From Corallococcus coralloides DSM 2259 (GTDB lineage Bacteria; Myxococcota; Myxococcia; Myxococcales; Myxococcaceae), in NCBI RefSeq assembly GCF_000255295.1, contig NC_017030.1:5890001-5954000 (forward strand): a DNA stretch of 64,000 nucleotides. Reading direction: 5' to 3'. This document shows positions 8,101 to 29,962 of this stretch, in pieces; position 1 is the stretch's first letter; each line of letters starts with the position of its first letter. Both the position numbers and the translations under genes were made by a program. The notes beneath the pieces are model-generated. The model was given only the letters and a program-made list of their open reading frames with translations. It ran no database searches and was not told the DNA's origin.

Positions 8101-10224
8101 ACCGCGCGCACCATGATGGAGACCGAGGCCCGCGCGAGCCGCGACACCAAGAGCGCCATCGAGGGCTTCGTCGCCGCCGCGAAGCTCGCGGCCCAGAAGC
8201 TCAATGACCCCGACGGCGCCGCGGCCCTCTACCGCCTGGCGCTGGAGCGCGATCCGCTGCACCCGGGCGCGGCCACCGGCCTGGAGGAGCTGCTCGCGCA
8301 GCGCGGCGGTTCCTCCGACCTCGCGGCCCTGCACGAGCGGCGCGCGGAGGCCCGGCTCGCGCAGCGCGACGCGGAGGCCGCCGCTGCGGCGTACGTCACC
8401 GCGGCCCGCCTGCACAACGTGGCCCTGGGTGATCGGGCTCGCGCGCTCGCGGTGCTGGAGAAGGCCCTGGCGGCCCGGCCCGGCTTCCCCGACGCGCTGG
8501 AGACTCGCGGCCTGCTCCTCCTGGAGGCGCAGCAGTACGCGGAGGCCGCGCAGATGCTCGGCCAGCGCGTGCAGCAGGGCGGTGACCCTCGCGTGCTCGC
8601 GCAGCACCACCTGACGCTGGGCGCGCTCTACCAGCAGCACCTCAACGACCCGGGCCGCGCGGCGGCGCACCTCCAGACGGCGCTGGCCACCCTGCCCCGC
8701 CACCCGGAGGCGCTGGAGCGGCTGGCCACGGTGTACGCGCAGGGCCGCAACTTCGGCGGCGCGGTGGACTGCCTGCGGCGGCTGTTGGATCAGGACCTGC
8801 CCAACGACGCCCGCGCGCGCTTCACCGTGGAGCTGGCGCGCATCCACGAAGAGGGCCTGGGCGACGTCGCCTCCGCCACGGCGCTCTACAAGAAGGCGCT
8901 GGAGCTGACGCCGGGCGAGCCCGCGCTGGTGGACCGGCTGGTGGCCCTCTACGAGCGCCAGCGCAACCTGCCGGAGCTGGCGCAGATGCTGGAGGCCCAG
9001 GCCGCCGCCACCGCGTCCACGGACGTCAAGCGCGCGGTGTCCCTGCGCATGCGCGTGGCGAGCTTCTACGCGGGCCCGCTGACGGAGCCGGCTCGCGCCA
9101 CCGTCATCTACCGGCAGCTCGTGGAGCAGGATCCGCAGAACCTCGGGGCCCGTGCCGCGCTGGCGGACCTGTATGGCCGCGACATGGCCAGCTTCCCGCT
9201 CGCCATCGAGGAGCACCGGCAGATCCTGCGCCAGGACCCCGCTCGCGTGGACAGCCTGCATGCGCTGTTCAAGCTGTGGGACGCCCAGAAGCAGCAGGAC
9301 AAGGCGTTCGCCGTCGCCGCGGTGCTGACCTTCATGCGCGCCGCCAACGAGGTGGAGCAGGCCTTCTACTCGGAGGCCCGCGCCCGCCAGCCTCAGGAGC
9401 CGCGTGAAGCGCTGCCCGCCGCGGACGTGGACACCGTCCTCATGCACCCGGCCGCGCGCGGCCCGCTGACGGACCTGCTGCGCGCCATGGGCGAGCACCT
9501 GGGCAAGGTGTACCCGCCGCAGTTCGAGATGCTCGGCGTCAACCCGAAGCAGGACAAGCTCAAGCCGGACTCGGCCGTGTTCAAGGCCGTGCGCGCGGTG
9601 GCGCAGACCTTCGGCGTGGAGGAGTTCGAGGTCTACCTTGCCCGGCGCGGCATGTTGCAGCCGGAGACGACGGAGCCCCTGTCCCTGTGCGTGGGCCAGG
9701 ACGTCGTGCGCCGCTTCAACGCCCGTGAGCAGAAGTTCCTCATCGGCAAGGCGGTGCTGGGCCTGCTCAACAAGACGGCCGTCCTCTCCAAGCTGTCCCA
9801 GGGCGAGACGGTGGACCTGTTCGGCAACGCCATCCGCGTCCACGAGCAGCAGTTCAACGGCCTGGGCCGGCGCAACGACGAGATGACGAAGCAGCTCAAG
9901 AAGGCCTTCAGCCGCAAGGCGATGAAGGCCTCGGAAGGCCCCGCGCAGACGCTGTCCACGCAGTCGAAGATCGACGTCGCGGCGGTGGTGGACGCGCTCG
10001 GCTTCTCCGCGGACCGCGCGGGCCTGCTCGTCTGCGGCGACCCGTCCGTGGGCCTCACCATGGTGCTGCGCGAGGATCCGAACATCGTGGCCAACCGCCA
10101 GGATGGCAGCACCGACGGCATCCTCCAGGCGGTGCGCGAGCGCGCGGACCTGAAGGCCCTGTTGTCGTGGCTGCTGACGGACGACTTCTTCCGCCTGCGT
10201 CAGCGCATCGGCCTGTCGCTGTAG
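5155..10224 (+). CDS. giant TPR-repeat protein (1689 residues)
   Basis: From residue about 45 to about 1430 the protein is a nearly unbroken array of 34-36-residue helical repeats with TPR consensus ('A...Y...L...P....AL..L..LY...GR..EL'), roughly 35-40 copies. The last 250 residues are a different, conserved-looking globular domain that begins around 'PAARGPLTDLLRAMGEHLG'. The reading frame is open from 4939, but the ATG at 5155 is preferred because translation upstream of it is low-complexity and basic. No signal peptide or membrane helix, so it is cytosolic and probably a scaffold. Large TPR proteins of this type are common in myxobacteria and usually uncharacterised. It converges on the cinA-like gene with only 9 bp between the stop codons. 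Confidence 0.85.
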   Translation: MSESNDVTRPSSPASVPPPGAPEVGAAQTLAQNVSTLPAPVPQASAEDDARERIASMEREAKALATTEPQTAALLFHEVGLLWEEPLKNPRNAAVAFQNAYKLAPRFLANIRAARRLFADVGNWQMVVQLIDAELSASEDPRQQASLLFEKGQILEERLSRDNDAADALRQALDRKPTDVTLLTQLESVYASRNDAGALVEIYRLLAGAVVPPSLRAHYLTSAGMLLEERLKQKEAAAAAFREAFALDRSDPLLQAAVKRVAEREGRTDELLSALLSEAEGQGSQGAPAYLHIAKVHDRLGRKDDALSALLAARRVSPHEPLVLSALAGIYETQGRFEELADVLLAWVGSINDESELVAINLRLAALYEDDLKRDQEAAARYQAILSRIPSHAAALAGLGKLSYRMQNWEGLVAVFDAEVTAAEDAKGKAARMYKAAEILEERLGRQEDAIARYNACLQLQPGYLPAQKALTRLYERQGRFAELVQMFEQDLLQTSDRDQVITTLNKMAVIYEDRLGDLDHAIECMKRILDLASDHLPTLRNLARLYERAGRYRELLETNDLEASFAGDTKQVLSLLHRNAEILDENLKDRVGAITAYERVLALSPSYLPALKALGRLYAQDGRWEKLIDMYRAESEISPSTDAAAALIYKIGELYEHRLKQENEALASYQEALMLAPSYFPALRALARIHRAHGAWESLVEVLRADAANRTDPLERANAMYQAAAIWEDQLGRPELAIEGYQEVLRLTPGHAATLRALERLYVAQDNVKELVSILDRETQVGQTPAAKVTAYLKLARLYLDRFQEPSRAAQCCESVLGLEPGNLTALMLLERIRVSDRVRRAELRARIAERVTDTRLSSALRILAAADQEKGPPSERTLEVYQRAFDADPSDARLAFGLERVLRQSGDTAALSRMYGMRLAVTTDATEALELLLRAAELAEKNPDQEQAAALYRQALELQAQCLPALQGARRVALRRGDFATARTMMETEARASRDTKSAIEGFVAAAKLAAQKLNDPDGAAALYRLALERDPLHPGAATGLEELLAQRGGSSDLAALHERRAEARLAQRDAEAAAAAYVTAARLHNVALGDRARALAVLEKALAARPGFPDALETRGLLLLEAQQYAEAAQMLGQRVQQGGDPRVLAQHHLTLGALYQQHLNDPGRAAAHLQTALATLPRHPEALERLATVYAQGRNFGGAVDCLRRLLDQDLPNDARARFTVELARIHEEGLGDVASATALYKKALELTPGEPALVDRLVALYERQRNLPELAQMLEAQAAATASTDVKRAVSLRMRVASFYAGPLTEPARATVIYRQLVEQDPQNLGARAALADLYGRDMASFPLAIEEHRQILRQDPARVDSLHALFKLWDAQKQQDKAFAVAAVLTFMRAANEVEQAFYSEARARQPQEPREALPAADVDTVLMHPAARGPLTDLLRAMGEHLGKVYPPQFEMLGVNPKQDKLKPDSAVFKAVRAVAQTFGVEEFEVYLARRGMLQPETTEPLSLCVGQDVVRRFNAREQKFLIGKAVLGLLNKTAVLSKLSQGETVDLFGNAIRVHEQQFNGLGRRNDEMTKQLKKAFSRKAMKASEGPAQTLSTQSKIDVAAVVDALGFSADRAGLLVCGDPSVGLTMVLREDPNIVANRQDGSTDGILQAVRERADLKALLSWLLTDDFFRLRQRIGLSL

Positions 10225-10971: not shown

Positions 10972-11080
10972 GGAGCCGAGGATTCTACTCCAACGGACCC
11001 CGGGGGTGGACTCGCGCATTGCGCTGGCGCGGACCTGTCCTGTCCTGGAGTCAGCACGAGGGGACGGACATCCTTCGCGC

Positions 11081-12235
11081 ATGGACTCCACCGAGACCCG
11101 GGACGCGATCCGCGCGTCCGTGCGTGCCCTCTGCAACCGCTTCCCTCCGAAGTACTGGCGCACCCTCGACGCGGAGCGTGAATACCCTCACGACTTCGTC
11201 AAGGCCCTTACGGAGGCCGGGCTGCTGGCCGCGCTCATCCCGGCGGAGTACGGCGGCGCGGGGCTGGGCCTGCGCGAAGCGGCGGTCGTGCTGGGGGAGA
11301 TCAACCACTTCGGCGGGAATGCATCCGCGTGTCATGCGCAGATGTATGTGATGAACGTGCTCCTGCGGCACGGCTCCGCGGAGCAGAAGCAGCGGTATCT
11401 GCCGGAGATCGCCGCGGGCCGGCTGCGGCTCCAGGCGTTCGCGGTGACGGAGCCGAACTCGGGCTCGGACACCACCGCCATCGAGACGACGGCGGTCCGG
11501 CGCGGTGACCGCTACGTCGTGAACGGACAGAAGATCTTCATCTCGCGCGTGCTCCAGTCCGACCTGATGCTCCTGCTCGCTCGGACGACGCCCCGCGCGG
11601 AGGTGCGCAAGAAGACGGACGGGATGAGCGTGTTCCTGCTCGACCTGCGGAAGACGCAGGGGCTGGAGGTCCGGCCCATCCGGACCATGCTCAACCATGC
11701 GACGAACGCGCTGTTCCTCGAGAACGTCGAAGTGCCCGTCGAGGGGCTGATCGGCGAAGAGGGCAAGGGCTTCTCGTACATCCTGGATGGCATGAACGCG
11801 GAGCGGGTGCTCGTCGCTTCTGAGGCCATCGGGGATGGCCGCTGGTTCATCGAGAAGGCCGTCACGTATGCGCAAGAGCGCGTCGTGTTCGGCAAGCCCA
11901 TCGGGGCCAATCAGGGTGTGCAGTTCCCCATCGCGAAGGCGCACACGGCGCTCACGGCCGCGTCCCTGCTGACGGAGCAGGCCGCGACGCTCTTCGACAG
12001 CCACCAGCCCTGCGGAGCCGAAGCGAACATGGCGAAGTACCTGGCCGCGGAAGCCGCCTGGGAGGCCGCCAATGCCTGCATGGACACCTACGGCGGCTAC
12101 GGCTTCGCCGAGGAGTACGACGTGGAGCGCAAGTTCCGCGAGGTGCGCCTGTTCATCAACGCCCCCGTGAGCCGGAACATGGCCCTGTCGTACATCAGCC
12201 AGCACGTCCTGGGGCTGCCCCGCTCGTTCACGTAG
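11081..12235 (+). CDS. acyl-CoA dehydrogenase
   Basis: A 384-residue flavoprotein of the acyl-CoA dehydrogenase family, which introduces an alpha,beta double bond into acyl-CoA and passes electrons to ETF. The N-terminal helical domain contains 'LIPAEYGGAGLG'. The FAD/substrate signature 'AFAVTEPNSGSDTTAI' is near residue 125, and the C-terminal helical domain contains 'CMDTYGGYGFAEEYDVERKFRE'. Length is normal for the family. The ATG at 11081 fits the usual N-terminus. It overlaps the convergent MDR gene by 8 bp at its 3' end. It lies at the edge of the biosynthetic region and may or may not take part in it. Confidence 0.9.
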   Translation: MDSTETRDAIRASVRALCNRFPPKYWRTLDAEREYPHDFVKALTEAGLLAALIPAEYGGAGLGLREAAVVLGEINHFGGNASACHAQMYVMNVLLRHGSAEQKQRYLPEIAAGRLRLQAFAVTEPNSGSDTTAIETTAVRRGDRYVVNGQKIFISRVLQSDLMLLLARTTPRAEVRKKTDGMSVFLLDLRKTQGLEVRPIRTMLNHATNALFLENVEVPVEGLIGEEGKGFSYILDGMNAERVLVASEAIGDGRWFIEKAVTYAQERVVFGKPIGANQGVQFPIAKAHTALTAASLLTEQAATLFDSHQPCGAEANMAKYLAAEAAWEAANACMDTYGGYGFAEEYDVERKFREVRLFINAPVSRNMALSYISQHVLGLPRSFT

Positions 12236-13217
12236 CGCCGGGTTCACGCATGTGGACCACGACCTTGCCGATGGCGCGGCGCTCCGCGAGGGTGCGCAGG
12301 CCGTCGGCGGTCCGCTCCAGGGGCAACCGGGAGGTGATGCGCGGGAGGATGCGGCCCTGCGCGTACCAGGCGAAGAGCTGCTCCATGGTTTCGCGGAGCG
12401 CCGCCGGGTCGTGGTAGCGGAAGTAGCGCAACGACGACCCCAGCACCGCGCGGTGCTTCACGAGTAGCCGGTGCGCGGGAATGCTCGGGGCCTGTCCCGC
12501 CGCGAAGCCCACGAGGACATAGCGGCCTCCCCACCCCAGCGTCGAGAGCGCCGGGCCGAAGAGCGGGCCCCCGACCGGATCGAAGCAGACGCTCACACCA
12601 GAGGCTCCCGAGGCGGCGAGGACCTGCTCCTTCCAGTCTCCGTCAGTGTGGCGGATGACGTGGTCCGCGCCCGCTTCACGCGCGATGGCGAGCTTGTCCG
12701 GCGTGCTCGCGACCGCGATGACGGTGGCCCCCAGGGCCTTGCCCAGCTGCACGGCCGCGAGCCCCACGCCCCCACTGGCCCCCAGCACGAGGAGCACCTC
12801 TGAGGGCTTCAGGTGGGCGACGCGGATCAGCGCCAGGGCGGTGCTCACGTAGGCGCTGGTCAGCGCGGCGGCGAGGTCGAAGGAGACGCCTGCCGGCAGC
12901 AGGAAGGTCTCCCTCACGGAAGCCACAGCCTGCTCGGCATAGCCTCCGTGCCACAGGATGGCCACGACGCGGTCTCCGGGCTGGAAGCCCGAGCCTTCGG
13001 GTGCGCTGGCGATGGTGCCTGCTGCCTCCAGGCCTGGGACAAAGGGCAGCGCGGGCCGGGTCTGATAGGTCCCTCCGATCATGAGGAGGTCGGCGAAGTT
13101 CACGCTGCAGGCGTGCACGTCGATCATCACCTCGTCGGGTTTCGGAACGGGCTCGGGGACCTCCGCGAGGGTGAGCTGCTCGGGTCCGCCCCACGTCCCG
13201 CAGACAATCGCTCGCAT
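12228..13217 (-). CDS. MDR-family NADPH:quinone oxidoreductase / enoyl reductase
   Basis: A 329-residue zinc-free medium-chain reductase. The N-terminal GroES-like domain contains 'VHACSVNFADLLMIGG', and the Rossmann domain carries 'LGASGGVGLAAVQLGKALGA' near residue 145. This subfamily reduces quinones or enoyl thioesters with NADPH. It is the last gene of a four-gene minus-strand operon; its ATG is 4 bp after the aldo/keto reductase stop. In that setting it could act as a trans enoyl reductase for the ketosynthase product, which is inference from context. Confidence 0.88.
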   Translation of the reverse strand: MRAIVCGTWGGPEQLTLAEVPEPVPKPDEVMIDVHACSVNFADLLMIGGTYQTRPALPFVPGLEAAGTIASAPEGSGFQPGDRVVAILWHGGYAEQAVASVRETFLLPAGVSFDLAAALTSAYVSTALALIRVAHLKPSEVLLVLGASGGVGLAAVQLGKALGATVIAVASTPDKLAIAREAGADHVIRHTDGDWKEQVLAASGASGVSVCFDPVGGPLFGPALSTLGWGGRYVLVGFAAGQAPSIPAHRLLVKHRAVLGSSLRYFRYHDPAALRETMEQLFAWYAQGRILPRITSRLPLERTADGLRTLAERRAIGKVVVHMREPGAT

Positions 13218-13221
13218 GTCG

Positions 13222-14190
13222 TCACTCCTGGGTGGATGGGGCCGTGAGGCTTCGCCAGAGGTCGTCGCTCGCGGGCAGGCGTGACGCCTCGGTCACCAAT
13301 TGTTCGAGCTGCTCCGGGCTGCGCGCGCCGACGAGGATCGACGTCACGAAGGGACAGTGCACCAGCCACCAGGTGGCCAGGCCCGACGGAGACAGCGCGT
13401 GGGCGGCGGCCTTCGCCTTGAGCTGTTCGACGCGGGCCGCGTTCTCCGGAGTCCACGCCTTCGCGTAGAGGTCCCTGCGCTGTCCGATGCGCGTGCCTTC
13501 CGGGATGTCACCCGCGATGGCGTACCTGCCGCTCAGCAGGCCGCCCGCCAGCGGCGAATAGGGCGTGTACTGGAGCCCCAGCTTCGCGCAGGCCTCCAGC
13601 ACGCCGTTGTGTGCGTCATCCTGTTCGAGCAGGTTGAAGCGGTTCTGGACCCAGCCGAATCCCACCGGGCCTCCTGAGCGCGGAGCGACACAGCGCCAGA
13701 GGTCACTCGCGGTCACGTTCGACAGGCCGAAGCGGCGGACCTTCCCCGCCCTCACGAGCGCCAGGAAGGAGTCGAGGACGTCGTCCCACGGCGTGCCAGG
13801 GTCCGGTACATGCGCCAGGTAGAAGTCGAGCGTGTCGACGCGGAGCCGTGCGAGCGACCGGTCCACCTCCGCGAACACGTGCTTGCGCCCGAGCCCACCG
13901 CGAAGGCCCACCTTGGACGAGATGAGCACCCGGTCCCGCATCGCGGCGCCGCGCGACGCCAGCCACGCGCCGATGATGGCTTCGCTGGCGCCATCCGCGT
14001 AGGTGCCCGCCGTGTCGATGAGGTTGATCCCCAGCGCCACCGCGCGATCCAGGAGCGCATGTGCTTCAGCTTCGGTCTCCCCCTGGCCCAGCAGCTTCCG
14101 GGAGCTTCCGATGCCCCCGAAGTTGGCCGCCCCCAGGGCGAAGACCGACACGTCGATGCCGCCCAGCTTTCGGTAGATCACGTCCGCCAC
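13222..14190 (-). CDS. aldo/keto reductase
   Basis: A 322-residue NADPH-dependent aldo/keto reductase with a TIM-barrel fold. Catalytic residues are visible in order: Asp and Tyr in 'LIDTAGTYADGASE', Lys in 'VLISSKVG' and His in 'DFYLAHVPDP'. The C-terminal cofactor region reads 'VTSILVGARSPEQLEQL'. Its start overlaps the end of the thioesterase gene by 13 bp, and 4 bp separate it from the MDR gene, so the three are co-translated. Likely job here: reduction of a beta-keto or amino-ketone group of the cluster product (inferred). Confidence 0.9.
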   Translation of the reverse strand: MADVIYRKLGGIDVSVFALGAANFGGIGSSRKLLGQGETEAEAHALLDRAVALGINLIDTAGTYADGASEAIIGAWLASRGAAMRDRVLISSKVGLRGGLGRKHVFAEVDRSLARLRVDTLDFYLAHVPDPGTPWDDVLDSFLALVRAGKVRRFGLSNVTASDLWRCVAPRSGGPVGFGWVQNRFNLLEQDDAHNGVLEACAKLGLQYTPYSPLAGGLLSGRYAIAGDIPEGTRIGQRRDLYAKAWTPENAARVEQLKAKAAAHALSPSGLATWWLVHCPFVTSILVGARSPEQLEQLVTEASRLPASDDLWRSLTAPSTQE

Positions 14191-14996
14191 GCCTCCGGAA
14201 AGGGCAACGCCAGGTCCCCCTCCCCCGCGCCGGAGGAAGCGGGCTGGCCCAGCAACGTGAAGTGCGCCGTGTAGGTTGCGGCGGGATCGCCCTCGTCGAT
14301 GAAGACCTGCGACGTCGCCGTGAGCCGCACCTTGCCGCCCTGACGAAGCGTGTCTGCGTCCAGCGCGGGCAACGTGTCACAGCGGGCCCGGTAGTCGCAG
14401 GTGATGGGCCGGTGGATGGCGAACTCGCAGCGGCGAAGGAGGATCTGCACGCCGAGCCGCTCCGCCCACGCTGCCCGCACGAGCAACAGCCAGGGCGCGA
14501 GCCCCGCGGAGGTGAACACCCCCGGACCGAAAGCCGTCCCTCGGTGATTGAGCGAAGGCCCCAGCGGCGCCACGAGCACGATGCGCTCGGGCTCGAACGC
14601 CTCGAACTGGATCCCAAGGAACTTCGTCATCGGGATCCGTGCATGGAGCTCCAGGGCCAGCCGCGCCAGGACATCCTCCGGTGCATCAATGGGCTCACCG
14701 CTCACGGACAGCTCCCGATGAACCGTGTCGTGCCCTACTCGGGAAGCACCGTCCTTCCGAGCATCAGGGGGCTGACCATCTACGGATGGAGCCGCATGAA
14801 CCTTGTCGTGCCATGCGCGGGAAGCACCGTCCGCTTGCGACTCAAGGGATGCACCGTTCACGGTTGGCTTCCCATGAACCGTCTCATGCTCTGATGCACC
14901 GTCCTCCCGCGCCACAAGGGAATGACCGTTCATGGATGGCTCCCCGAGGACCGTGTCGAGCCCTGCGCGGGAAGCACCGTGTCCAGAGGGCCCCAC
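14178..14996 (-). CDS. hotdog thioesterase-like (YiiD_C type) protein with N-terminal tandem repeats
   Basis: A 272-residue protein. Residues about 108-270 form a hotdog-fold domain of the YiiD C-terminal/PaaI-like thioesterase type ('PLGPSLNHRGTAFGPGVF', then 'YRARCDTLPA' and 'QGGKVRLTATSQVF'). Residues 6-107 are four imperfect 24-26-residue repeats with consensus 'DGASR..HDTVH..PSVNG'. Unit lengths are all multiples of three bases, which supports their being translated. An alternative start near Met123 would cut into the fold, so the long form is preferred. It lies 55 bp after the ketosynthase and overlaps the reductase gene. It could release or edit acyl chains made by the ketosynthase (inferred). 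Confidence 0.7.
   Translation of the reverse strand: MGPSGHGASRAGLDTVLGEPSMNGHSLVAREDGASEHETVHGKPTVNGASLESQADGASRAWHDKVHAAPSVDGQPPDARKDGASRVGHDTVHRELSVSGEPIDAPEDVLARLALELHARIPMTKFLGIQFEAFEPERIVLVAPLGPSLNHRGTAFGPGVFTSAGLAPWLLLVRAAWAERLGVQILLRRCEFAIHRPITCDYRARCDTLPALDADTLRQGGKVRLTATSQVFIDEGDPAATYTAHFTLLGQPASSGAGEGDLALPFPEAWRT
14676..14981 (-). repeat. four tandem 72-78-bp units inside the thioesterase gene
   Basis: Units at 14981-14904, 14903-14832, 14831-14754 and 14753-14676 encode 26, 24, 26 and 26 residues. The shared core is Gly-Ala-Ser, then a His/Asp-Thr-Val-His box, then Ser-Val-Asn-Gly. The repeat is degenerate but in phase. It lies between the ketosynthase and the hotdog domain; its function is unknown. 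Confidence 0.7.
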
Positions 14997-15051
14997 GCAG
15001 TCGCACAGGCCCTGATGCCTGGAGCGTTCTGGTCCTCGTTCCGGTGGTGGC

Positions 15052-17811
15052 TCATGTTCCTGGCACCTGGAGGTCGGGCCCGGCTTCGAGCACGACGTGG
15101 TAGTGAGTGCCTCCGCTTCCCGCTGCGTTGACGCCCGCGAAGCGCGCCTCCTTCAGCGCTTGCGGCTCCGTGCAGAGGCGGAGGTTGTCGGCCGCGCCAA
15201 TGAGCGGGGTCGTCTCTCCCAGGGTTGCCGGCACCCGCTTCGCAGCCAGCGTGTACAGGGCCTTCATCAGACTCGCGGCGCCCGCGGCAGCGCCTGCGTG
15301 ACCGATGTTCGGCATGACGGCTCCCAGCGGAAGCGGTTGGGCTCGCGCGGTACCGAGTGTCCGTCCCAAGGCCGCGAGCTCCGCGCGGTCGCTGGCAGGA
15401 TGCCCACTGCCGAAGCACTCCACGAAGGCGAGCGCGTCCGCCGACACGTCACACCGTGACCAGGCGCGCCGGATGGCGAGGCTCATCGCGGACTCGGCGA
15501 CGAGCCCGTGGTCCTCGGGCGTTCCGAACGCGCTTCCCACCGCACGGATGATCCCGAGCACCGGCTCCCCCCGCTCCCGCGCGTCCGACAAACGGCGCAG
15601 CAGGCACACCGTGGCGCCTTCTCCAGGCAGATACCCATCGGAGGCCGCGTCGAACACGGTCGGTGCGTCCCTTTGGGACAGAAGCCCCATCGCGCCCTCG
15701 TCTGCCATGCGCGTGACTCCGAGTCGCATGTCCGCCGTCGCCCAGAACACCGCGTCCGCTTCCCGCGACGACAACCGGCCGCATGCGACGTCCAGGCCGC
15801 CCATGGACGCCGCCGCGCCTCCGGCTTCGATGGCGCAAGTCGGGCCGGTCAGATCGAACGCTCGGGCGATCCTCGCCGCCATGAAGCTCGGCGACAGGTT
15901 GAAGAGGCTGCCGGCCCACAGTTCCGGCAGGTCGACCGACAGGCGCTTCATCGCCGCTCGCACGGTCCGGGCCACGCCCTTGGGGTCCTTGCCCGTCTCG
16001 CGTAACACGCGCTGGAGGTGCTCCTCTATCTCCGGCAGACGTGCGGCGGCGACCTGGCGCAGTCCGTACTCGCCGCAGTGCTCCGCGGAGACGACCACCG
16101 GGATGTTGCTTCCCCGTTCGATGGAGACGTTCGCTGCCGCGCTTCGCGCCAGGTCCACCAGCAGGTAGTGGAGCGGATCATGCCGCAGGATGTCGGCCGG
16201 TCGTTCGTCGTACTGGCTGGCGTTGCCCGTGAATCGGGACGCGTCCAGTTCCAGCGGCGCCCCGAGCCCGAACGGCAACCTCCGGAAGGCTCGGCGGCCG
16301 TGGAGCAGGTTCGTCCACAGCGTGGCAAGGTCGGGAGCGTCCGCGAACGCACCGGCCATCCCAACGATGGCGATGGGCTCGTCGCTCCTCGCGGGACGCC
16401 CCCGCGTGTCTCGCAGCAACGCCTGGGCTCGCTTGGGGGAAGGCCGGTCCTCCACCACCGCGTGGTAGTTCTGGCCTCCGCTCGCGATGGCGCTGACGCC
16501 CCCCATGCGCGGCTGCTCGCCCGCCGGCCACGACCGGGCGGTCTTGTCGACCTCGATGAGCCCTCCGGGTTCGAGCAGGCTCCGGGGCTTGTCTCCGTGC
16601 ACCGGTCCCGGAATGGCTCCGGACTCGAACAGGGCGAGCAGCGCGATCAGGTTCGCCAGCCCCGAGGCCTCCTTCGCATGCCCCAGGTTTCCCTTGATCG
16701 ACATCACGGGCACCGGCGACGCGGGTTGGGCCTCCTCACCATGTGCCTTCAGCGCGCGATCAAAGACCTTCGCCTCCACGGCGTCACCGGCCCGCGTCCC
16801 CGTACCGTGCGCGAGGATCACCCCCAACTCGCGAGGCTCCACGCCTGCCTGTTCGAGCGCACGCCCCACCGCCAGCCCGTGGCCGCGCGGATTCGGGACC
16901 AGCATGTACGCCTCAGCCGCGCCGTCGTTCGCCCCGCCCACTCCGCGGATCACCCCGTGGACGGGGAGCCGTTCCTGGGTCGCCCGTTCCAGGCTCGTGA
17001 GCACCAGCAGCACCACTCCGTCGGAGATGACCGTGCCGTTCCCCTTCTGGGCGAACGGGAAGCAGCCCTCGGACGACAGGAGGCGTGAGTTCGAATAGAG
17101 GACCTGGTTCACCGTGTCGACGTAGGACAGCGCGCCCGCGATGGCCCATGGCGCCCCCTTCGCGAGCTCCCGCGCCGCCAGTTCGATCGCGGCCAGACCG
17201 CCGGTGCAGTTCCCGTCCACGAGCAGCGCCTTCTCCGTGGTGCCCAGCGCCTCCGCGATGGCGCTCGCGAGCCGATGCGTGGCGCGCTCCCTCGGGTCCT
17301 CCACGAAGTCCGGCCCGAACGAATCCCGGAGCGACTGGCGCACCTTCTGGGTGAGGTCCGTCAGCTCCTGATGGGAGAACTCATTCGGATGCGCGCCGTG
17401 CACGAGGTACGGCTGGAGCTGATCCGCCACGGCCAGCACCGCCGTGTCGTAGAGCCCGTGGCCGCCACCGCGTGAGTGCGCGAGGAACACCGGAACGGGC
17501 TGCCCACCCAGCGAGCCAGGGGCCAGCCCCGCCGAAGACAGCGCCCGGTGCGCCGTCTCCACCACCCACCGCTGCTGAGATGCATCCTCCACGACGCCGC
17601 CCAGCAGCGTGGAGGTCCGGGCCGCGCCCACGGCCGCCGAGGGATCCAGATACAGGGCTTGGGGAATGCGCTCCTCCGGCCACTGGCCATACGTCGTCTT
17701 CCCCCCGTGAAGCACCTCCGCCAGCTCATCCAGTGTGCGCGCGCCAGGCAACGCAAACGCGAAACCAGAGATCGCCACCGGCGCGATCCCATCCAGTTTT
17801 CCTTTCCGCAT
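15052..17811 (-). CDS. double ketosynthase: intact KS fused to a KS lacking the active-site Cys (KS-CLF-like)
   Basis: A 919-residue protein with two beta-ketoacyl synthase domains and no acyltransferase, ketoreductase or carrier domain. KS1 (about 8-455) has the full triad: Cys202 in 'VDGNCTGGL', His335 in 'AHGTGT' and His378 in 'NLGHAKEASG'. KS2 (about 478-912) keeps the fold ('PIAIVGMAGAF', 'NIGHAGAAAG' with His838), but the nucleophile position reads 'IEAGGAAASM' (no Cys) and the first His motif is 'ECFGSGHP'. A condensing domain followed by an inactive partner resembles the KS/chain-length-factor pair of type II PKS and the KS-CLF of PUFA synthases (PfaC). It must rely on trans carrier and loading proteins. 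First gene of the minus-strand operon; its ATG is 334 bp from the divergent oxygenase gene. Confidence 0.85.
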   Translation of the reverse strand: MRKGKLDGIAPVAISGFAFALPGARTLDELAEVLHGGKTTYGQWPEERIPQALYLDPSAAVGAARTSTLLGGVVEDASQQRWVVETAHRALSSAGLAPGSLGGQPVPVFLAHSRGGGHGLYDTAVLAVADQLQPYLVHGAHPNEFSHQELTDLTQKVRQSLRDSFGPDFVEDPRERATHRLASAIAEALGTTEKALLVDGNCTGGLAAIELAARELAKGAPWAIAGALSYVDTVNQVLYSNSRLLSSEGCFPFAQKGNGTVISDGVVLLVLTSLERATQERLPVHGVIRGVGGANDGAAEAYMLVPNPRGHGLAVGRALEQAGVEPRELGVILAHGTGTRAGDAVEAKVFDRALKAHGEEAQPASPVPVMSIKGNLGHAKEASGLANLIALLALFESGAIPGPVHGDKPRSLLEPGGLIEVDKTARSWPAGEQPRMGGVSAIASGGQNYHAVVEDRPSPKRAQALLRDTRGRPARSDEPIAIVGMAGAFADAPDLATLWTNLLHGRRAFRRLPFGLGAPLELDASRFTGNASQYDERPADILRHDPLHYLLVDLARSAAANVSIERGSNIPVVVSAEHCGEYGLRQVAAARLPEIEEHLQRVLRETGKDPKGVARTVRAAMKRLSVDLPELWAGSLFNLSPSFMAARIARAFDLTGPTCAIEAGGAAASMGGLDVACGRLSSREADAVFWATADMRLGVTRMADEGAMGLLSQRDAPTVFDAASDGYLPGEGATVCLLRRLSDARERGEPVLGIIRAVGSAFGTPEDHGLVAESAMSLAIRRAWSRCDVSADALAFVECFGSGHPASDRAELAALGRTLGTARAQPLPLGAVMPNIGHAGAAAGAASLMKALYTLAAKRVPATLGETTPLIGAADNLRLCTEPQALKEARFAGVNAAGSGGTHYHVVLEAGPDLQVPGT

Positions 17812-18045
17812 TGCAAATCAATGTAAGGCCATGATCTGGATGCGTCCACGACCAGCCAAATCACATACATCCATGCCAACACAGGACGGCGTCGGCACGA
17901 TCCTACCCGACGTATGCACGGGGTCTCCTCAAGAGAGCGACGCTGCCCTCCTGGGAGCGTCGTTCCGGAGCCCAGGAGCGGCTGATATGATTTCAAGCTG
18001 CGCGCTCCATCCAAAAACACTGTCAACGGCAAAATCCAGGGCAGG

Positions 18046-18074
18046 TTGACGCCAGACTTCGGCATCAGTATATC
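18046..18074 (+). promoter_or_regulatory. near-consensus sigma70 promoter for the plus-strand biosynthetic operon
   Basis: TTGACG at 18046-18051 and TATATC at 18069-18074, with exactly 17 bases between them. That is 5/6 and 4/6 matches to the consensus hexamers in a very GC-rich genome, about 70 bp before the ATG at 18146. The rest of the gap 17812-18145 holds no convincing gene; it is AT-richer than its surroundings and must also contain the promoter of the ketosynthase operon. Confidence 0.65.
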
Positions 18075-18145
18075 AAGACAGACATCGCGGCCCTTTGCCT
18101 GACCATTGGCTGCCGCTCCATTCCCCCTCATCCCCTGGACAGCCT

Positions 18146-19060
18146 ATGAAAAGACTCGATCCGAGCCGTCTCAAGGATTCGTTCATCAATGTCTCCACCT
18201 TCCCGGCGGACCTGGGTGAAGGCCGCTCGGCGGCTCCGGCCGGCGCGCTGCTCGACGCCGTGGTGGAGGCCGTGGAGAAGAAGAACGGGTTCGCGGTGGT
18301 GTTCGGCGTGAACAAGCTGCTCGCGGATCGCGGGCTGGACATTCACACCGAGTCCGGCGCCGCGCTGGCCCGCGACTACCTGGAGGGCATCTTCCGGGCG
18401 ATCGCGCCGCGCTTCGACCTGGCCCGCTACAGCCCCACGCCCATCGCCTACGACCGCGTGGCCAAGATGGACGTGGACGGCTTCAACAAGAACCGGAACT
18501 TCACGCCCAACAGCGACCACACGGAGAGCCGCGAGTTCGTCACCACGAAGTGCGTCCACTTCGACTCGGCGACGCCGTTCATCGCGAACCTCTACGGCCC
18601 CAACCAGAACATCAGCGGCGGCATGCCGATGATCTGCGACACGCGCCGGTTCTGCCAGGACAAGGGCCTGGACCCGCGCTCGCTCATCGAGAACATCCCC
18701 AACAACTACAACGTCGCCGTGAAGGCGGAGTTCTCCGAGGAGATCCTGCGCGACTACTCGTTCGCGCTGAAGCTCGACCTGGAGAACGACATCGTGATGA
18801 TCGTCCTCCACAACGAGGTGGTGGGCGGGCTCGCCCACGCTGCCACCCAGCCGTCCCTCACCGACGCGAGCAAGGCCGCGAAGCGCCCCATCCGCCACGT
18901 CGAGTACCAGGTCGCGGGCACCGACGACCTCAGGCGCTGGTACGACTACTACGGCCTGTCGCTGGAGAAGGCGACCCACCACAAGGACGACGCCAACATC
19001 ACCCGCTTCGTCTCCGGCGAGCTCAACCCGTACCCGAACGTCATCGAGGTGCGGGCATGA
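18146..19060 (+). CDS. probable Fe(II)/2-oxoglutarate-dependent oxygenase
   Basis: A 304-residue soluble protein. I do not recognise a named family, but the order of residues fits the Fe/2OG fold: 'VHFD' at 137-140 (HxD metal pair), a strand 'NDIVMIVLHNEVVGGLAHAA' in which His231 could be the distal metal ligand, and Arg247/Arg250 shortly after in 'KRPIRHVEYQ' as 2OG-binding candidates. The ATG at 18146 is preferred over the upstream open frame because it lies after the promoter. First gene of the seven-gene plus operon; its stop overlaps the next start (ATGA). If the assignment is right, it hydroxylates an amino acid or the assembled product. The assignment is inferred. Confidence 0.55.
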   Translation: MKRLDPSRLKDSFINVSTFPADLGEGRSAAPAGALLDAVVEAVEKKNGFAVVFGVNKLLADRGLDIHTESGAALARDYLEGIFRAIAPRFDLARYSPTPIAYDRVAKMDVDGFNKNRNFTPNSDHTESREFVTTKCVHFDSATPFIANLYGPNQNISGGMPMICDTRRFCQDKGLDPRSLIENIPNNYNVAVKAEFSEEILRDYSFALKLDLENDIVMIVLHNEVVGGLAHAATQPSLTDASKAAKRPIRHVEYQVAGTDDLRRWYDYYGLSLEKATHHKDDANITRFVSGELNPYPNVIEVRA

Positions 19061-19968
19061 CCTCGCGACAGCACGCGGAGCGCAACGCGGCGGAGATGAA
19101 GGAACTGCTCGCGTACCTGGACGCCCGGCCCTGGCCGGACGGCTATGAAGCGGCGCGGGTCCACTACGATTCGCTCGGGCTGCCCATCGCCTCGGACGTC
19201 AGGGTGGAGCCCGTCAGCGTGAACGGCATCCGTGCCCAGTGGCTCACGCCGCCGGAGTGCGATCAGGACCGTGCCCTCCTCTTCCTGCATGGCGGCGGCT
19301 TCGTCTTCGGCTCGCTCGTGAGCCATGGGCACATGGCCGCGGAGATGGCGCGGCAGGCACGTTGCCGGGTGCTCCAGCTCGACTACCGCCGGGCACCGGA
19401 GCACCCCTACCCGGCCGCGCTGGACGACGCGACCAGCGCGTACCGCTGGCTGCTGGAGCGTGGGTTCAAGCCGGGCCACATCTCCATCGCCGGGGACTCC
19501 GCGGGCGGCGGCCTGGTGGTCTCCATGCAGGTCCACGCGCGGGCCCAGGGGCTTCCTCTCGCGGGTGCGCTGGTGTGCATCTCGTCGTGGTTCAACCTGG
19601 GCATCCAGGGCGAAAGCTACGAGACGCGCGAGAAGGCGGACGCGCTCGTGCAGCGCAAGGTGGTGGAGGAGGTCGCCCGGCACTACCTCAATGGACAGGA
19701 CGCGCGGCAGCCCACGATTTCACCCATCCACGCGGACCTCACCGGCTTCCCGCCCCTGCTCATCCAGGTGGGCGAGCGGGAGCTGCTCTTCAGCGACTCG
19801 CAGGCGATGGCGAAGAAGGCCCAGGCCCAGGGCGTGGACGTCACGTTCGAGGAGTGGCCCGACATGGTCCACGTCTGGCACCTGCACTTCCACCGCCTCA
19901 CCAGCGGCCGCGAGGCGCTCCAGCGCATCGGCCAGTTCGTGATCGACAAGACGGGAGCGCGCAAGTGA
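19057..19968 (+). CDS. alpha/beta hydrolase (HSL / acetyl-hydrolase type)
   Basis: A 303-residue hydrolase of the hormone-sensitive-lipase group: oxyanion motif 'FLHGGGFVFG' near residue 74, nucleophile motif 'IAGDSAGGGLV' near 148, acid and His in the C-terminal part ('PPLLIQVGERELLF' and 'DMVHVWHLHF'). No signal peptide, so cytoplasmic. It starts on ATGA overlapping the previous stop and ends overlapping the next GTG. In the cluster it could hydrolyse an ester or thioester intermediate or act in trans release; this is inference. Confidence 0.85.
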   Translation: MTSRQHAERNAAEMKELLAYLDARPWPDGYEAARVHYDSLGLPIASDVRVEPVSVNGIRAQWLTPPECDQDRALLFLHGGGFVFGSLVSHGHMAAEMARQARCRVLQLDYRRAPEHPYPAALDDATSAYRWLLERGFKPGHISIAGDSAGGGLVVSMQVHARAQGLPLAGALVCISSWFNLGIQGESYETREKADALVQRKVVEEVARHYLNGQDARQPTISPIHADLTGFPPLLIQVGERELLFSDSQAMAKKAQAQGVDVTFEEWPDMVHVWHLHFHRLTSGREALQRIGQFVIDKTGARK

Positions 19969-21194
19969 CGACGCCCGGCGACGCGGTGATGGGTCCCCAC
20001 CTGCACCGCAACAACCAGAAGATGATCCCCGCGAGCGAGAGCGCCTGGGCCGTGGCCCGGGAGTCGAACATGCTCAACATCCGCGTGGACGCGGTGGACG
20101 GCCAGAACCGCATGCGCGAGGTGGACACCGGGCACGAGTTCGCCAACCTGTGCTCCTGCTCCTACCTGGGGCTCAACAGCCACCCGGACGTCCTCCAGGG
20201 CGGCATCGACGCGCTGAAGCGCGCGGGCATCACCGGCCTGTCGATGGCGGAGTTCCGCATCCGGCTGGGCCTGATGGAGGAGCTGGAGGAGCAGCTCGCG
20301 GACCTCTTCGGTGGGCCGGTGCTGCCCGCCGTCACCTCCAGCGCGCTCACCGCGGCCATCCTGCCGGTGCTCGGGTCGGGACACCTGACGGACAGCGAGC
20401 CCCTGGTGATGGTGTTCGACAAGTTCGCGCACTTCTCCATGGCGTTCGTGAAGCCCATCGTCGCGGACGAGACGCGGGTGCTGAACTGCCCGCACAACGA
20501 CATGAACTACCTGGAGGACGTCTGCCGGAAGTATCCGCGCGTGGCGTACGTGTGCGACGGCGTCTACTCCACGGGCGGCGCCACGGACCTCCAGGCGCTG
20601 CTCACGCTCCAGGAGAAGTACGGCCTCTTCCTCTACCTCGACGACTCACACTCGCTCTCCACGCAGGGGAAGAACGGCGAGGGCTACATCCGCTCGCGGC
20701 TGCGCGAGATGAACGACCGCACGGTGATCATCGCCTCCATCGCCAAGGCGTTCGGCAGCACGGGCGGCCTCGCGATGCTCGGCTCGCGCAAGCACTACGA
20801 CTTCCTCTACCGGACGGGCCCCATGGGCTGGTCCCAGAGCCTGCGGACGGCGGCCATTGGCACCTCCATGGGGAGCATCAAGGTCCACCGCAGCCCGGAG
20901 CTGGCGAAGCGGCAGGAGCAGCTCCGCCGGAACATCGCCCTCTTCGACGAGCACATCCAGACCGAGCAGCGCGGCGACGGCCTGCACATCAAGGTCGTGG
21001 AGGTGGGCGAACAGGACAAGGCCGTGAAGCTGTCACGCGAGCTCTACAAGCGAGGCTTCTACTGTTCCGCGGTCTTCTTCCCCATCGTGCCCGTGGGGAA
21101 GGCGGGCATCCGGCTGATGCTGCGCGGCGACCTGCCCACGGAGCAGGTCCAGTCGTTCATCGGCCACCTGAAGGAAGTCCTCGCGACGCTGTAG
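19965..21194 (+). CDS. alpha-oxoamine synthase (PLP-dependent, KBL/AONS/SPT family)
   Basis: A 409-residue fold-type I PLP enzyme if started at the GTG that overlaps the previous stop; an ATG lies 8 codons later (19989). Family signs: 'SYLGLNSHPDV' near 66, the PLP-stacking His in 'FDKFAHFSM', 'DGVYSTGG' near 198, the PLP Asp/His in 'LDDSHS' (226-230) and the Schiff-base Lys261 in 'SIAKAFGSTGG'. These enzymes join an amino acid to an acyl thioester with loss of CO2, giving an alpha-amino ketone. Next to a ketosynthase operon this is the most telling gene of the cluster: it would splice an acyl chain onto an amino acid. The actual substrates are not visible in the sequence. Confidence 0.85.
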   Translation: MTTPGDAVMGPHLHRNNQKMIPASESAWAVARESNMLNIRVDAVDGQNRMREVDTGHEFANLCSCSYLGLNSHPDVLQGGIDALKRAGITGLSMAEFRIRLGLMEELEEQLADLFGGPVLPAVTSSALTAAILPVLGSGHLTDSEPLVMVFDKFAHFSMAFVKPIVADETRVLNCPHNDMNYLEDVCRKYPRVAYVCDGVYSTGGATDLQALLTLQEKYGLFLYLDDSHSLSTQGKNGEGYIRSRLREMNDRTVIIASIAKAFGSTGGLAMLGSRKHYDFLYRTGPMGWSQSLRTAAIGTSMGSIKVHRSPELAKRQEQLRRNIALFDEHIQTEQRGDGLHIKVVEVGEQDKAVKLSRELYKRGFYCSAVFFPIVPVGKAGIRLMLRGDLPTEQVQSFIGHLKEVLATL

Positions 21195-21208
21195 GCGGGG
21201 AGCGCGCG

Positions 21209-22153
21209 ATGGCTGCCTTCCTTTCCCATGCTGTCGTCACCGCGCACGGGAACCTGCCCCGGCTCGTGCGCGAGCTGGAGGCGGCGCTCACGGAGGGCCT
21301 GCATGAGCGCATGCAGGTCCCGCTGCGCGTCGCCGTCCCCTCCTCTTCCCGGCACGCCGCGTTCGTGTCGATGCCGGCCGTGTCGGAGCACCTGGGCCTC
21401 TACATCAACAAGGTGGCGACCCTCTTCGAGCGGTCCGCCACGGATCCGCTGCCCACCATGAACGGCGTGGTGGCGGCGTTCTCCGCGCGCACGGGGGAAC
21501 TGCTCGCGATGCTCGATGGCGCGGCGGTGACGGAGCTCAAGTGCGCCGCCGTGTCCGCGCTCGTCACGGATTTCTGCGCGCGTACGGATGCCCGGACGCT
21601 GGCGGTGGCGGGCACCGGAGCGCAGGCACGGCAGCAGGTGCTGGCGGTCCGCGCGGTCCGTCCCATCCAGGAGGTGCGGCTCTGGGCGAGGAACCCTGCC
21701 CGCTGCGGTGCGTTCGCCGCGGAGCTGCGCGCGTCCCTGGGCGAAGTGGTGCACGTCGCCGCCTGTGGGTCGCTCGACGAGGCCCTCCGGGGCGCGGACG
21801 TGATTGGCACCGCGACGTCGTCGAAGACACCGCTGGGGAGCTTCGAGGCCCTCTCCCCCAGCGTGCACATCAACTGCATGGGCGGTCACACCGTGGAGGC
21901 CCGGGAGGTGCCGCTCGAACTGCTGCGCACGTCGACGGTCATCGTCGAGGACCTGGCCACCGCGCTCGCGGAGGCCGGACCGGTGCACACCAACGCCATC
22001 ACCCTGGGGCAGCTCGTGAGGAGGGACAGCGGTCCCCTGCGAACAAGCCGCACCGTCTTCAGCTCGACGGGACACGCCTTCCTGGACGTCCTCACGGTCG
22101 CGCACGTGCTGCGTGAACGCGAGCTGATCCACCGAACCTGGAGGAGCACATGA
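21209..22153 (+). CDS. ornithine cyclodeaminase / mu-crystallin family protein
   Basis: A 314-residue NAD(P)-binding protein. The N-terminal domain has 'VPLRVAVP' and 'YINKVATLF'. The Rossmann motif 'LAVAGTGAQARQQV' lies near residue 132, followed by 'DVIGTATSSKTPLGSFEAL' and 'HINCMGGHTVEAREV', which match the family. Members make proline from ornithine, reduce cyclic imines, or build non-proteinogenic amino acids (SbnB in staphyloferrin B). Here it probably supplies or reduces an unusual amino-acid unit. It starts 14 bp after the oxoamine synthase, and its stop overlaps the next ATG. Confidence 0.85.
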   Translation: MAAFLSHAVVTAHGNLPRLVRELEAALTEGLHERMQVPLRVAVPSSSRHAAFVSMPAVSEHLGLYINKVATLFERSATDPLPTMNGVVAAFSARTGELLAMLDGAAVTELKCAAVSALVTDFCARTDARTLAVAGTGAQARQQVLAVRAVRPIQEVRLWARNPARCGAFAAELRASLGEVVHVAACGSLDEALRGADVIGTATSSKTPLGSFEALSPSVHINCMGGHTVEAREVPLELLRTSTVIVEDLATALAEAGPVHTNAITLGQLVRRDSGPLRTSRTVFSSTGHAFLDVLTVAHVLRERELIHRTWRST

Positions 22154-23118
22154 TGAAGGAGTTGCCCCGAATCGATTTGACGTCCGCGACGCCAGGGTCC
22201 GAAGCCGAGCGCCGTGCGGCGTTCGAGATCGACCGGGCCTGCAAGCAGGTGGGCTTCTTCACCCTGAGCGGTCACGGCATCGCGTCATCGGTCTTCGAGG
22301 ATGCCTATTCCCTCTCACGCGCGTTCTTCCGCCTGCCGCTCGAGGCGAAGAACCAGTGCCGGTTGAAGTCCGGCTTCACCATGGCCGCGGACGACTACAC
22401 GCCCTACGGCTACAGCGGCATGCTGGAGGAGAACGCCTACGCGTACATGGGCCGCAAGGGGCTCCCCAGCGACTACGTGGAGAAGTTCAGTGTGGGCCGG
22501 CTCATCGAGGACGACAGCGCGAGCCTGCCGTTCAGCAACGACACGGAAGGCCAGCGGCTGCGCGCGGCGCTCAAGGCGTACTTCCGCGAGTGCGAGGCGC
22601 TGACGGCCCGGCTCACGGAGCTGTTCAGCATCGCGCTGGACCTGCCCCGGGACTTCTTCGCGAAGAAGACCTCCGCGTCCACCGACTCGCTGCGCTCCCT
22701 GCTCTACCCACAGCTCAACCCGGAGCTGGTCAACGACCAGGGCATGGGCGAGCACACGGACGGGACGCTGTTGACGGTCCTGGCGCAGACGGGCCCTGGC
22801 ATCCAGGTGAAGGAGCGCGGGGGCTCCTGGATCACGCCCACGCTGGAGCGGCGGGATCACCTCATCGTCAACATCGGCGACCTGATGGCCCGCTGGTCCA
22901 ACGACGAATACGTGTCCACGCCACACCGGGTCGTCCTGGGCGGAGGCGAGCGTCAGTCCCTGGCGTTCTTCAAGCTCGCCAACGACGACGCGCTCATCGA
23001 GTGCTTCCCCAAGTTCTGCAAGGACACGCCCGCGAAGTACGAGCCCGTCGTCTACAAGGCCTTCTCCCTCCAGAAGATGAACGCGCTGTTCGGTGTCGGC
23101 GACACCGGACGCTCCTGA
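22150..23118 (+). CDS. isopenicillin-N-synthase-like Fe(II)/2OG oxygenase
   Basis: A 322-residue protein of the IPNS/DIOX family: N-terminal 'IDRACKQVGFFTLSGHGI', iron ligands His202 and Asp204 in 'GEHTDGTLLTVL' and His259 in 'VSTPHRVV', with Arg268-x-Ser270 for the 2OG carboxylate. All metal and cosubstrate residues are present. The start is ATGATG, whose first ATG overlaps the previous stop. With the first gene of the operon it gives the cluster two probable non-haem iron oxygenases; likely hydroxylation, desaturation or ring closure on an amino-acid-derived intermediate. Confidence 0.9.
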   Translation: MMKELPRIDLTSATPGSEAERRAAFEIDRACKQVGFFTLSGHGIASSVFEDAYSLSRAFFRLPLEAKNQCRLKSGFTMAADDYTPYGYSGMLEENAYAYMGRKGLPSDYVEKFSVGRLIEDDSASLPFSNDTEGQRLRAALKAYFRECEALTARLTELFSIALDLPRDFFAKKTSASTDSLRSLLYPQLNPELVNDQGMGEHTDGTLLTVLAQTGPGIQVKERGGSWITPTLERRDHLIVNIGDLMARWSNDEYVSTPHRVVLGGGERQSLAFFKLANDDALIECFPKFCKDTPAKYEPVVYKAFSLQKMNALFGVGDTGRS

Positions 23119-23126
23119 GGCCCACC

Positions 23127-24482: not shown

Positions 24483-24485
24483 ACC

Positions 24486-25667: not shown

Positions 25668-25687
25668 GGAGCCGCTGGCCTCCGCCG

Positions 25688-27472: not shown

Positions 27473-27579
27473 ACCAGTCAGGAATGAAGGGTGCGCCCCA
27501 CCTGATAAGGGGCACCGGCACCGGCGATAAATGGATCCGGAGATCAATGCCCCCGGCGCGACGGGCGGCTTCCCGCACA

Positions 27580-27702
27580 CGGCTGGGCGGCGACCGCCTG
27601 CGGGATCTGGTTCGGCTGACCACGGGGCATGACCTGCTGGACATGACGCTCCCGTGGGCCATGGGGACGCTGAAGCCCCTGGAGGCGGATCCGGTGCCCC
27701 GG
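27580..27702 (+). pseudogene. duplicated internal fragment of the ATP-grasp gene
   Basis: 123 bp that match 25296-25418 in the same orientation with about 7 substitutions (roughly 94% identity by eye). The translated part keeps 'LGGDRL' and 'LVRLTTGHDLLDMTL', with Trp changed to Arg and Gln to Pro. Neither flank resembles the ATP-grasp gene, so both ends are lost. The rest of the gap 27473-27803 shows no gene. This is the scar of a second copy of the ligase gene or of an unequal rearrangement at the cluster edge. Confidence 0.85.
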
Positions 27703-27803
27703 CACCCGCTGTTCCCTGGTGTGATTCCTCAATCCACCCTGGAGGGGCACACCGGGAGCACACGGCGGTCGTTCACTGTGGCTTGAAGGGCCACCGCTTC
27801 CGG

Positions 27804-29782: not shown

Positions 29783-29962
29783 TGTCCCCCCAAGCCACCG
29801 AGGCGAACGCCCCTGGCCGCAGCGTCCCCTCCGGCGCGGCGGTGGGATGGACCCCGCCGTGTCGAACGCAGGAACGCCGTTGGTTCCCTTCGCGAAGGTG
29901 GATGTCAGACTCATGAGCCATCATCCATGGCTATCTGACATTCCTCGTTTAGGGACTTGTTC

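Follow-up and report, generated by a model that had tools for sequence, protein, structure and literature searches.

A stand-alone ketosynthase-chain-length-factor didomain encoded beside an alpha-oxoamine synthase and an amino-acid ligase in a Corallococcus gene island

A 64,000-nucleotide stretch of the Corallococcus coralloides DSM 2259 genome (bases 5,890,001-5,954,000 of a single contig of 10,080,619 bases; hereafter the window, in whose numbering positions are given) encodes a 919-residue protein at 15052-17811 on the minus strand, starting with ATG, in which two ketosynthases (KS) lie in one chain. We read this protein as a stand-alone didomain of a ketosynthase and a chain-length factor (CLF), an interpretation that is well supported for fold and conservation. 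Pfam places the N- and C-terminal ketoacyl-synt families on it in two stretches apiece, and the sole further family, KAsynt_C_assoc, scores 33 bits, exactly its cut-off, with no single stretch passing. Consistent with a preliminary description made from the sequence, which saw no other polyketide synthase (PKS) domains on the protein, none was found by Pfam, nor were FabA-like dehydratase domains found after the KS-CLF. The two halves are as follows.

16417-17811, minus strand: KS1, the predicted active ketosynthase half (residues 1-465), with Cys202, His335 and His378
15052-16416, minus strand: KS2, the chain-length-factor-like half (residues 466-919), with Ala666 in the Cys column, FGSGH at 800-804, and His838

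By its sequence, KS1 has the Cys-His-His residues of an active ketosynthase; Cys202, His335 and His378, already picked out in the preliminary description, are invariant in a ten-row ortholog alignment. In KS2 the loss of the cysteine described earlier is upheld, but its exact position is not: the Gly-Gly placed there is Gly664-Gly665, which directly precedes the true Cys column, and this column is Ala666 in all ten orthologs (alignment of 105 extracted KS domains), while position 665 is itself Ala in two of the ten. The replacement of HGTGT by FGSGH and the retention of His838 both stand. The motif reads FGSGH in nine orthologs and SGSGH in one, so that the column of its first histidine holds Phe in nine and Ser in one, and His804 (of FGSGH) and His838 are invariant in all ten. 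From the KS1-type triad, KS2 retains His838 only.

Structure prediction of the protein as a pseudo-dimer, which had been proposed as a check, gave a model that superposes over both halves on the KS-CLF didomain of PfaC, a polyunsaturated fatty acid (PUFA) synthase protein. The input alignment held 29 tandem-KS rows, comprising the window protein, six of the nine other orthologs and 22 of 24 other tandem regions, the PUFA-type tandem protein L037 being one of the 29 rows, and the resulting model reached a predicted local distance difference test (pLDDT) score of 90.4 and a predicted template modelling (pTM) score of 0.93; an alignment of the ten orthologs alone gave a model with pLDDT 32.9. The best Foldseek match is 6riw, the PfaC KS-CLF didomain (TM 0.78), which VIA-align superposes on model residues 9-918 over 811 residues at a root-mean-square deviation (rmsd) of 2.6 and Z 40.3, with both halves in one arrangement. 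The other rows among the 50 matches listed align over 355-412 residues, one half's worth, the exception being the 7zsk bimodule, with 754 residues at rmsd 46.7. Single-half rows reach Z 47.0, and 6riw is distinguished by its coverage, not by its Z. The model thus places the halves relative to each other as a KS-CLF pseudo-dimer. The entry 6riw is presumably the structure from Moritella marina by Santin (2020), a work cited in PMC12895367 and PMC9702510.

Orthologs of the protein are present in 10 of 16 Corallococcus genomes and in the same number of the 195 genomes of the phylum Myxococcota; their scores span 1892-2010 bits, against 363.6 bits for the best protein after them. Two peptide patterns taken from the KS-CLF matched seven loci in a scan of genome contigs, all seven in Corallococcus. 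All ten reading frames are free of internal stops, and the ratio of non-synonymous to synonymous substitution rates (dN/dS) over 13 pairs is 0.084-0.257 for KS1 and 0.091-0.203 for KS2. Since the KS2 values are similarly low to those of KS1, KS2 is maintained by purifying selection as KS1 is, and is not decaying; the loss of its cysteine, common to all ten species under such low dN/dS, is more than chance. The proposal that KS2 is a partner half without the nucleophile therefore holds up, being supported by the missing cysteine in ten of ten orthologs, by purifying selection and by the predicted pseudo-dimer resembling PfaC.

Phylogeny of each half, the other check proposed, places both on the type I side; for KS2 the outcome is divided. 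The tree holds 58 of the 105 extracted KS domains, picked by hand with near-duplicates and six of the ten orthologs omitted, and has no rows for aromatic type II KS-alpha/KS-beta or for the CLF of the PfaC-like protein of the same genome (L069), which was not caught by the profile. A 100/100 split separates the FabF, FabB, aryl polyene and Streptomyces type II rows from a type I side that includes both KS1 and KS2. Within it, KS1 groups with the first KS of proteins from two other Myxococcota genomes (G075 and G076) at 100/99, and KS2 with the second KS of the same proteins at 97/96; the groupings are unchanged when the other half is removed along with three long rows (SH-aLRT 99 for KS1 and 96 for KS2). 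These proteins are synthases of the order KS-KS-acyltransferase (AT)-acyl carrier protein (ACP)-ketoreductase (KR)-dehydratase (DH), encoded at L115 and L116, with a cysteine in both KS domains. An internal duplication, with KS1 and KS2 as sisters, is weakly rejected (log-likelihood, lnL, 26 lower; approximately unbiased (AU) test, p 0.024).

By sequence, then, both halves appear type I-like and nearest to a tandem-KS myxobacterial synthase, firmly so for KS1 and less so for KS2. The simplest history is that the tandem-KS pair was freed from a synthase of the G075/G076 type and that its second KS lost the cysteine before the ten species split. Because the nearest relatives of KS2 in the tree are cysteine-bearing ketosynthases, KS2 would be a chain-length factor by loss, and descent from a type II KS-beta is not what the tree supports. 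Three observations pull the other way: the AU test retains KS2 as sister of the PfaC CLF (p 0.453, lnL only 0.95 lower) and also on the type II side (p 0.143), so that it does not settle the ancestry of KS2, and long stems of 1.5-1.75 changes per site weigh against a simple origin from a tandem synthase.

The first of these would also suit a protein that is a fragment broken off a PUFA-type synthase (PfaC) and still makes lipid, as would the structural match to PfaC and the identical order of KS and then CLF. We regard such an origin as improbable, given the grouping of both halves with the G075/G076 domains, which persists when the other half and the long rows are removed, and given that the scanned proteins encoded around the gene include none recognised as a FabA-type dehydratase, an AT or a PfaD-type protein, and that no carrier-protein match lies near. 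It is scarcely credible that KS2 is a modular KS that recently lost its cysteine in this strain, in a protein on its way to becoming a pseudogene. The closest relatives of KS2 in the tree do carry the cysteine, but the loss is fixed in ten of ten species, which rules out a strain-specific event, the ten frames lack stops, KS2 dN/dS is 0.09-0.20, and KS2 falls outside the 14-row clade of modular KS domains. The outcome that the preliminary description had named as fatal to its view, a KS2 lying among active modular KS domains with its cysteine lost in one strain, is thus not what was found.

The preliminary description considered a free-standing KS-CLF of 919 residues an unusual architecture. 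That it is unique is not supported: the fused, free-standing design is not new, as examples on Streptomyces plasmids, tandem proteins in Corallococcus itself and the structural double in PfaC make clear. PfaC, like the present protein, has a KS followed by a Cys-less CLF in one chain, in a pseudo-dimer arrangement that the predicted model shares over 811 residues; according to the literature, it continues into dehydratase domains and works with PfaA, PfaB and PfaD, whereas the protein described here ends after KS2, with no ACP found near. In the clusters for PUFA and related lipids, the KS-CLF is accompanied by additional domains (PMC3098273).

The Streptomyces plasmid proteins (L111-L113) are free-standing, 787-789 residues long and consist of only two KS domains, the first with Cys/His/His and the second Cys-less, and an aldo-keto reductase (AKR) gene lies in their neighbourhood, as here. 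They differ in that their first half is FabF-like (above the FabF cut-off and type II in the tree), unlike KS1, that His replaces Cys in their second KS where KS2 has Ala, and that their clusters hold their own ACP, FabD, KR, dehydratases and separate KS genes, whereas no carrier-protein match was found in the island described here. In L111 the fusion lies at 5998-8361. The L115/L116 synthases, nearest to KS1 and KS2 in the tree, have both cysteines and, in addition, AT, ACP, KR and DH domains. Free-standing tandem KS proteins of the reverse order occur in three Corallococcus genomes: G012, G014 and also G005, which carries the island as well. At L030 and L033 a 968-residue frame holds two KS domains and nothing else, and in these and L031 the first KS is Cys-less (Tyr, Ala or Ser) while the second keeps its cysteine, the reverse of the arrangement here. 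In G014 the genes adjoining the tandem-KS protein carry AT, ACP, KR and DH domains. The clusters at L030, L031 and L033 each contain two or three tandem-KS proteins.

The prodigiosin protein PigJ, which we take to have two KS domains, may be another case of a fused tandem KS; its model NF053555 matches both halves of the KS-CLF, at 162.3 bits, far below the cut-off of 900. Type II KS-alpha/KS-beta pairs and AmcF/AmcG also combine an active with an inactive KS, but as two separate genes with an ACP, whereas here there is one open reading frame (ORF) and no carrier match near; unlike type II pairs, KS1 and KS2 belong to the type I part of the tree, although the AU test does not reject KS2 among the type II rows (p 0.143). 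Two plasmid regions with the best KS matches (H1 and H3) turned out to encode other PKS proteins. What is distinctive here is the combination of a KS-CLF with an alpha-oxoamine synthase (AOS) and a ligase, the lack of a nearby carrier protein and a possible new origin of the CLF half.

The KS-CLF gene belongs to a 12-gene island, whose other members are listed below.

11003-25676, both strands: whole island, about 14.7 kb, absent as one clean block from genome G006
11081-12235, plus strand: acyl-CoA dehydrogenase-like protein (acyl-CoA dehydrogenase-type families, none above its own cut-off)
12228-13217, minus strand: medium-chain dehydrogenase/reductase (MDR) protein like zinc-type dehydrogenases and quinone oxidoreductases (PF00107, PF08240; TIGR02824 at 239.8 bits, below its cut-off of 296.8)
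13222-14190, minus strand: AKR (PF00248, 188.8 bits)
14178-14996, minus strand: YiiD_C thioesterase-like protein, downstream of the KS-CLF on the same strand (PF09500, 67.1 bits, cut-off 27)
18146-19060, plus strand: orphan protein of 304 residues, first gene of the divergent operon, with a conserved HxD
19057-19968, plus strand: alpha/beta hydrolase, Abhydrolase_3 (PF07859, 198.4 bits)
19989-21194, plus strand: AOS, PRK07505 subfamily (486.6 bits, cut-off 342, longer frame scanned; start codon assumed)
21209-22153, plus strand: ornithine cyclodeaminase/mu-crystallin family protein, imine-reductase type (Pfam/NCBIfam-type scans of the longer frame; start codon assumed)
22150-23118, plus strand: isopenicillin-N-synthase-like non-haem dioxygenase (PF14226, PF03171)
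23127-24482, plus strand: 451-residue protein with no Pfam or NCBIfam match
24486-25667, plus strand: ATP-grasp ligase with an L-amino-acid-ligase C-terminal domain (PF18603, 67.3 bits; PF13535, 66.8 bits)

The eleven genes from the MDR gene (12228) to the ATP-grasp ligase gene (25667) were found in all nine other carrier regions; in one of these (L027) the last of them runs past the edge of the compared stretch. The ten genomes that carry the KS-CLF are exactly those with the acyl-CoA dehydrogenase-like gene (10 of 86 genomes of the family) and with the orphan gene (10 of 195 Myxococcota). Island boundaries were compared in three (G006, G013 and G014) of the six Corallococcus non-carriers, the others being G007, G009 and G012. 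The extent of about 14.7 kb follows from G006, in which the left flank, ending at 11002, and the right flank, resuming at 25677, adjoin (L136) with 8 bases shared. In G013 a remnant at the same site (L137, 8834-10447) contains the end of the 451-residue protein gene at 70% identity, together with an ATP-grasp gene whose frame is broken (93-95%). This suggests that G013 lost the island, and not that other genomes gained it. In G014 the island is missing and the junction shows some rearrangement. A second stretch near the island, 27565-29890, is likewise absent from G006, and at 2552-3754 the window encodes a protein in which Pfam recognises a Swt1-like HEPN domain (30.5 bits, cut-off 27.5).

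The 5' part of the thioesterase ORF contains a minisatellite with a 78-bp unit in 3.7 copies (14697-14980). As the nine orthologs match this ORF only from residue 48-109 onward, the true start probably lies inside or after the minisatellite. The 304-residue orphan protein gave nothing above threshold in Pfam, NCBIfam or PDB sequences and was not found on plasmids, its only matches being a sub-threshold one to NusA_N in Pfam (15.1 bits against a cut-off of 23.8) and one at chance level in the PDB (E 0.54). Its conserved HxD, followed by AHAATQP...RPIRH, resembles what we take to be the motif of 2-oxoglutarate-dependent oxygenases.

A carrier-protein motif scan of the 64-kb window found none, save one spurious match. 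In a genome-wide PF00550 search (150 of 170 candidates scored, 134 matches listed), the nearest match listed ends at contig position 5,654,096, about 247 kb before the island, and the nearest one downstream among those listed begins 508 kb past it. That neither motif nor profile places a carrier protein nearby agrees with the earlier description of a KS-CLF without other PKS domains; with no such match near the island among those listed, the KS-CLF is likely to work with a borrowed ACP or with CoA esters. Elsewhere in the genome, an 88-residue carrier-protein frame, whose match ends at 3,267,384, precedes the KS match of a FabF-like gene by 113 bp and looks like the fatty acid ACP.

Our best reading, towards which we lean only modestly, is that the island makes a short acyl chain on a borrowed ACP and turns it into an aminoketone-containing, peptide-like product. 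KS1 would be the only catalytic site, with Cys202 taking the acyl group and His335 and His378 driving decarboxylative condensation with malonyl-ACP, most likely malonyl-AcpP borrowed from fatty acid synthesis, given that neither an ACP close by nor an AT among the scanned neighbours was found. KS2, lacking the nucleophile and one catalytic histidine, may be retained as a partner in the dimer, completing the fold and probably forming half of the acyl tunnel, as in PfaC; control of chain length is its putative role, by likeness to chain-length factors. The AKR and MDR proteins would reduce the short chain and the YiiD-type thioesterase would free it or pass it on. The AOS, whose best solved relative among PDB sequences is 8xha (Alb29; E 5.5e-85), would then condense the chain with an amino acid, perhaps L-glutamate, to an alpha-aminoketone, which the cyclodeaminase-like reductase, the dioxygenase and the ATP-grasp ligase may modify and couple to an amino acid. 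Alb29 of albogrisin biosynthesis joins L-glutamate and acyl-CoAs into aminoketones, according to an excerpt of PMC11906848, and it is from this likeness only that we suggest L-glutamate; catalysis, ACP borrowing, chain length, order of steps and product are all inferred, and capture of the KS-CLF product by the AOS is likewise proposed by analogy.

The serine step of PigH in prodigiosin biosynthesis is presumably of AOS type. According to the prodigiosin literature, PigJ holds the starter on a cysteine and condenses it with malonyl held on the ACP domains of PigH, which then adds serine; the order proposed here, in which a KS acts first and an amino acid is then condensed on, has a precedent in PigJ/PigH. 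Several considerations tell against our proposal. Enzymes of the AOS family mostly use CoA thioesters, and the KS-CLF product might not be the substrate of this one; PigH carries ACP domains, whereas the AOS here is short and no carrier match was found in the island. Neither a dehydratase nor an AT was recognised in the scanned island proteins, and the carrier-protein searches gave no ACP nearby. Two island proteins (the 304-residue orphan and the 451-residue protein) are without assignment, and the island falls into two divergent halves, not necessarily parts of a single pathway.

Indeed, the two strands may serve separate pathways, with the AKR, MDR, thioesterase and KS-CLF giving an acyl product unrelated to the AOS/ATP-grasp operon. 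Divergent transcription would fit this, as would the hydrolase and acyl-CoA dehydrogenase-like genes, which suit neither route clearly, but all ten carriers keep the gene set and order, and G006 lacks the island as one block; we consider such a division fairly unlikely. A somewhat stronger competitor, though still a minority view, is that KS2 is a mere structural remnant that maintains the fold of the dimer without determining chain length, while KS1 performs one condensation, or an AmcF-AmcG-like cyclisation, on a special starter. The cispentacin AmcF model is the second-best NCBIfam match of KS1 (119.2 bits), and the island has few beta-processing genes; the score is, however, far under the cut-off of 325. 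An excerpt of PMC10698177 describes AmcF-AmcG as carrying out a single C2 elongation and cyclisation, with a partner that lacks functional motifs and also some CLF secondary structures, whereas KS2 is modelled as a whole KS fold.

Returning to the proposed acyl-to-aminoketone route, the setting of a KS-CLF with an Alb29-like AOS and an amino-acid ligase and with no carrier-protein match nearby is unusual, and the setting and the probable use of a KS-CLF in an amino-acid-derived compound look new. Three AOS neighbourhoods on plasmids were inspected, two with unrelated neighbours and one unannotated. No paper was recognised as treating this cluster in a literature search in which most candidates were unopened, so the cluster cannot be called undescribed. 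A bolder version, which we put forward only tentatively and think rather doubtful, is that the KS-CLF left its megasynthase without ACP or AT, that its Claisen condensation on thioesters of CoA or borrowed AcpP feeds a glutamate-type AOS and an ATP-grasp ligase in a pathway type not described before, yielding aminoketone peptides without PKS or nonribosomal peptide synthetase (NRPS) lines in Corallococcus, and that KS2 is a chain-length factor arisen anew from an active type I KS.

If these interpretations are right, chain-length factors may arise more than once from active ketosynthases, and a free-standing KS-CLF of only 919 residues would be a convenient system for the role of the CLF half without a megasynthase. 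For Corallococcus, the island would point to an unassigned cluster that encodes both an AOS and an amino-acid ligase and might be missed by PKS/NRPS rules keyed to carrier domains.

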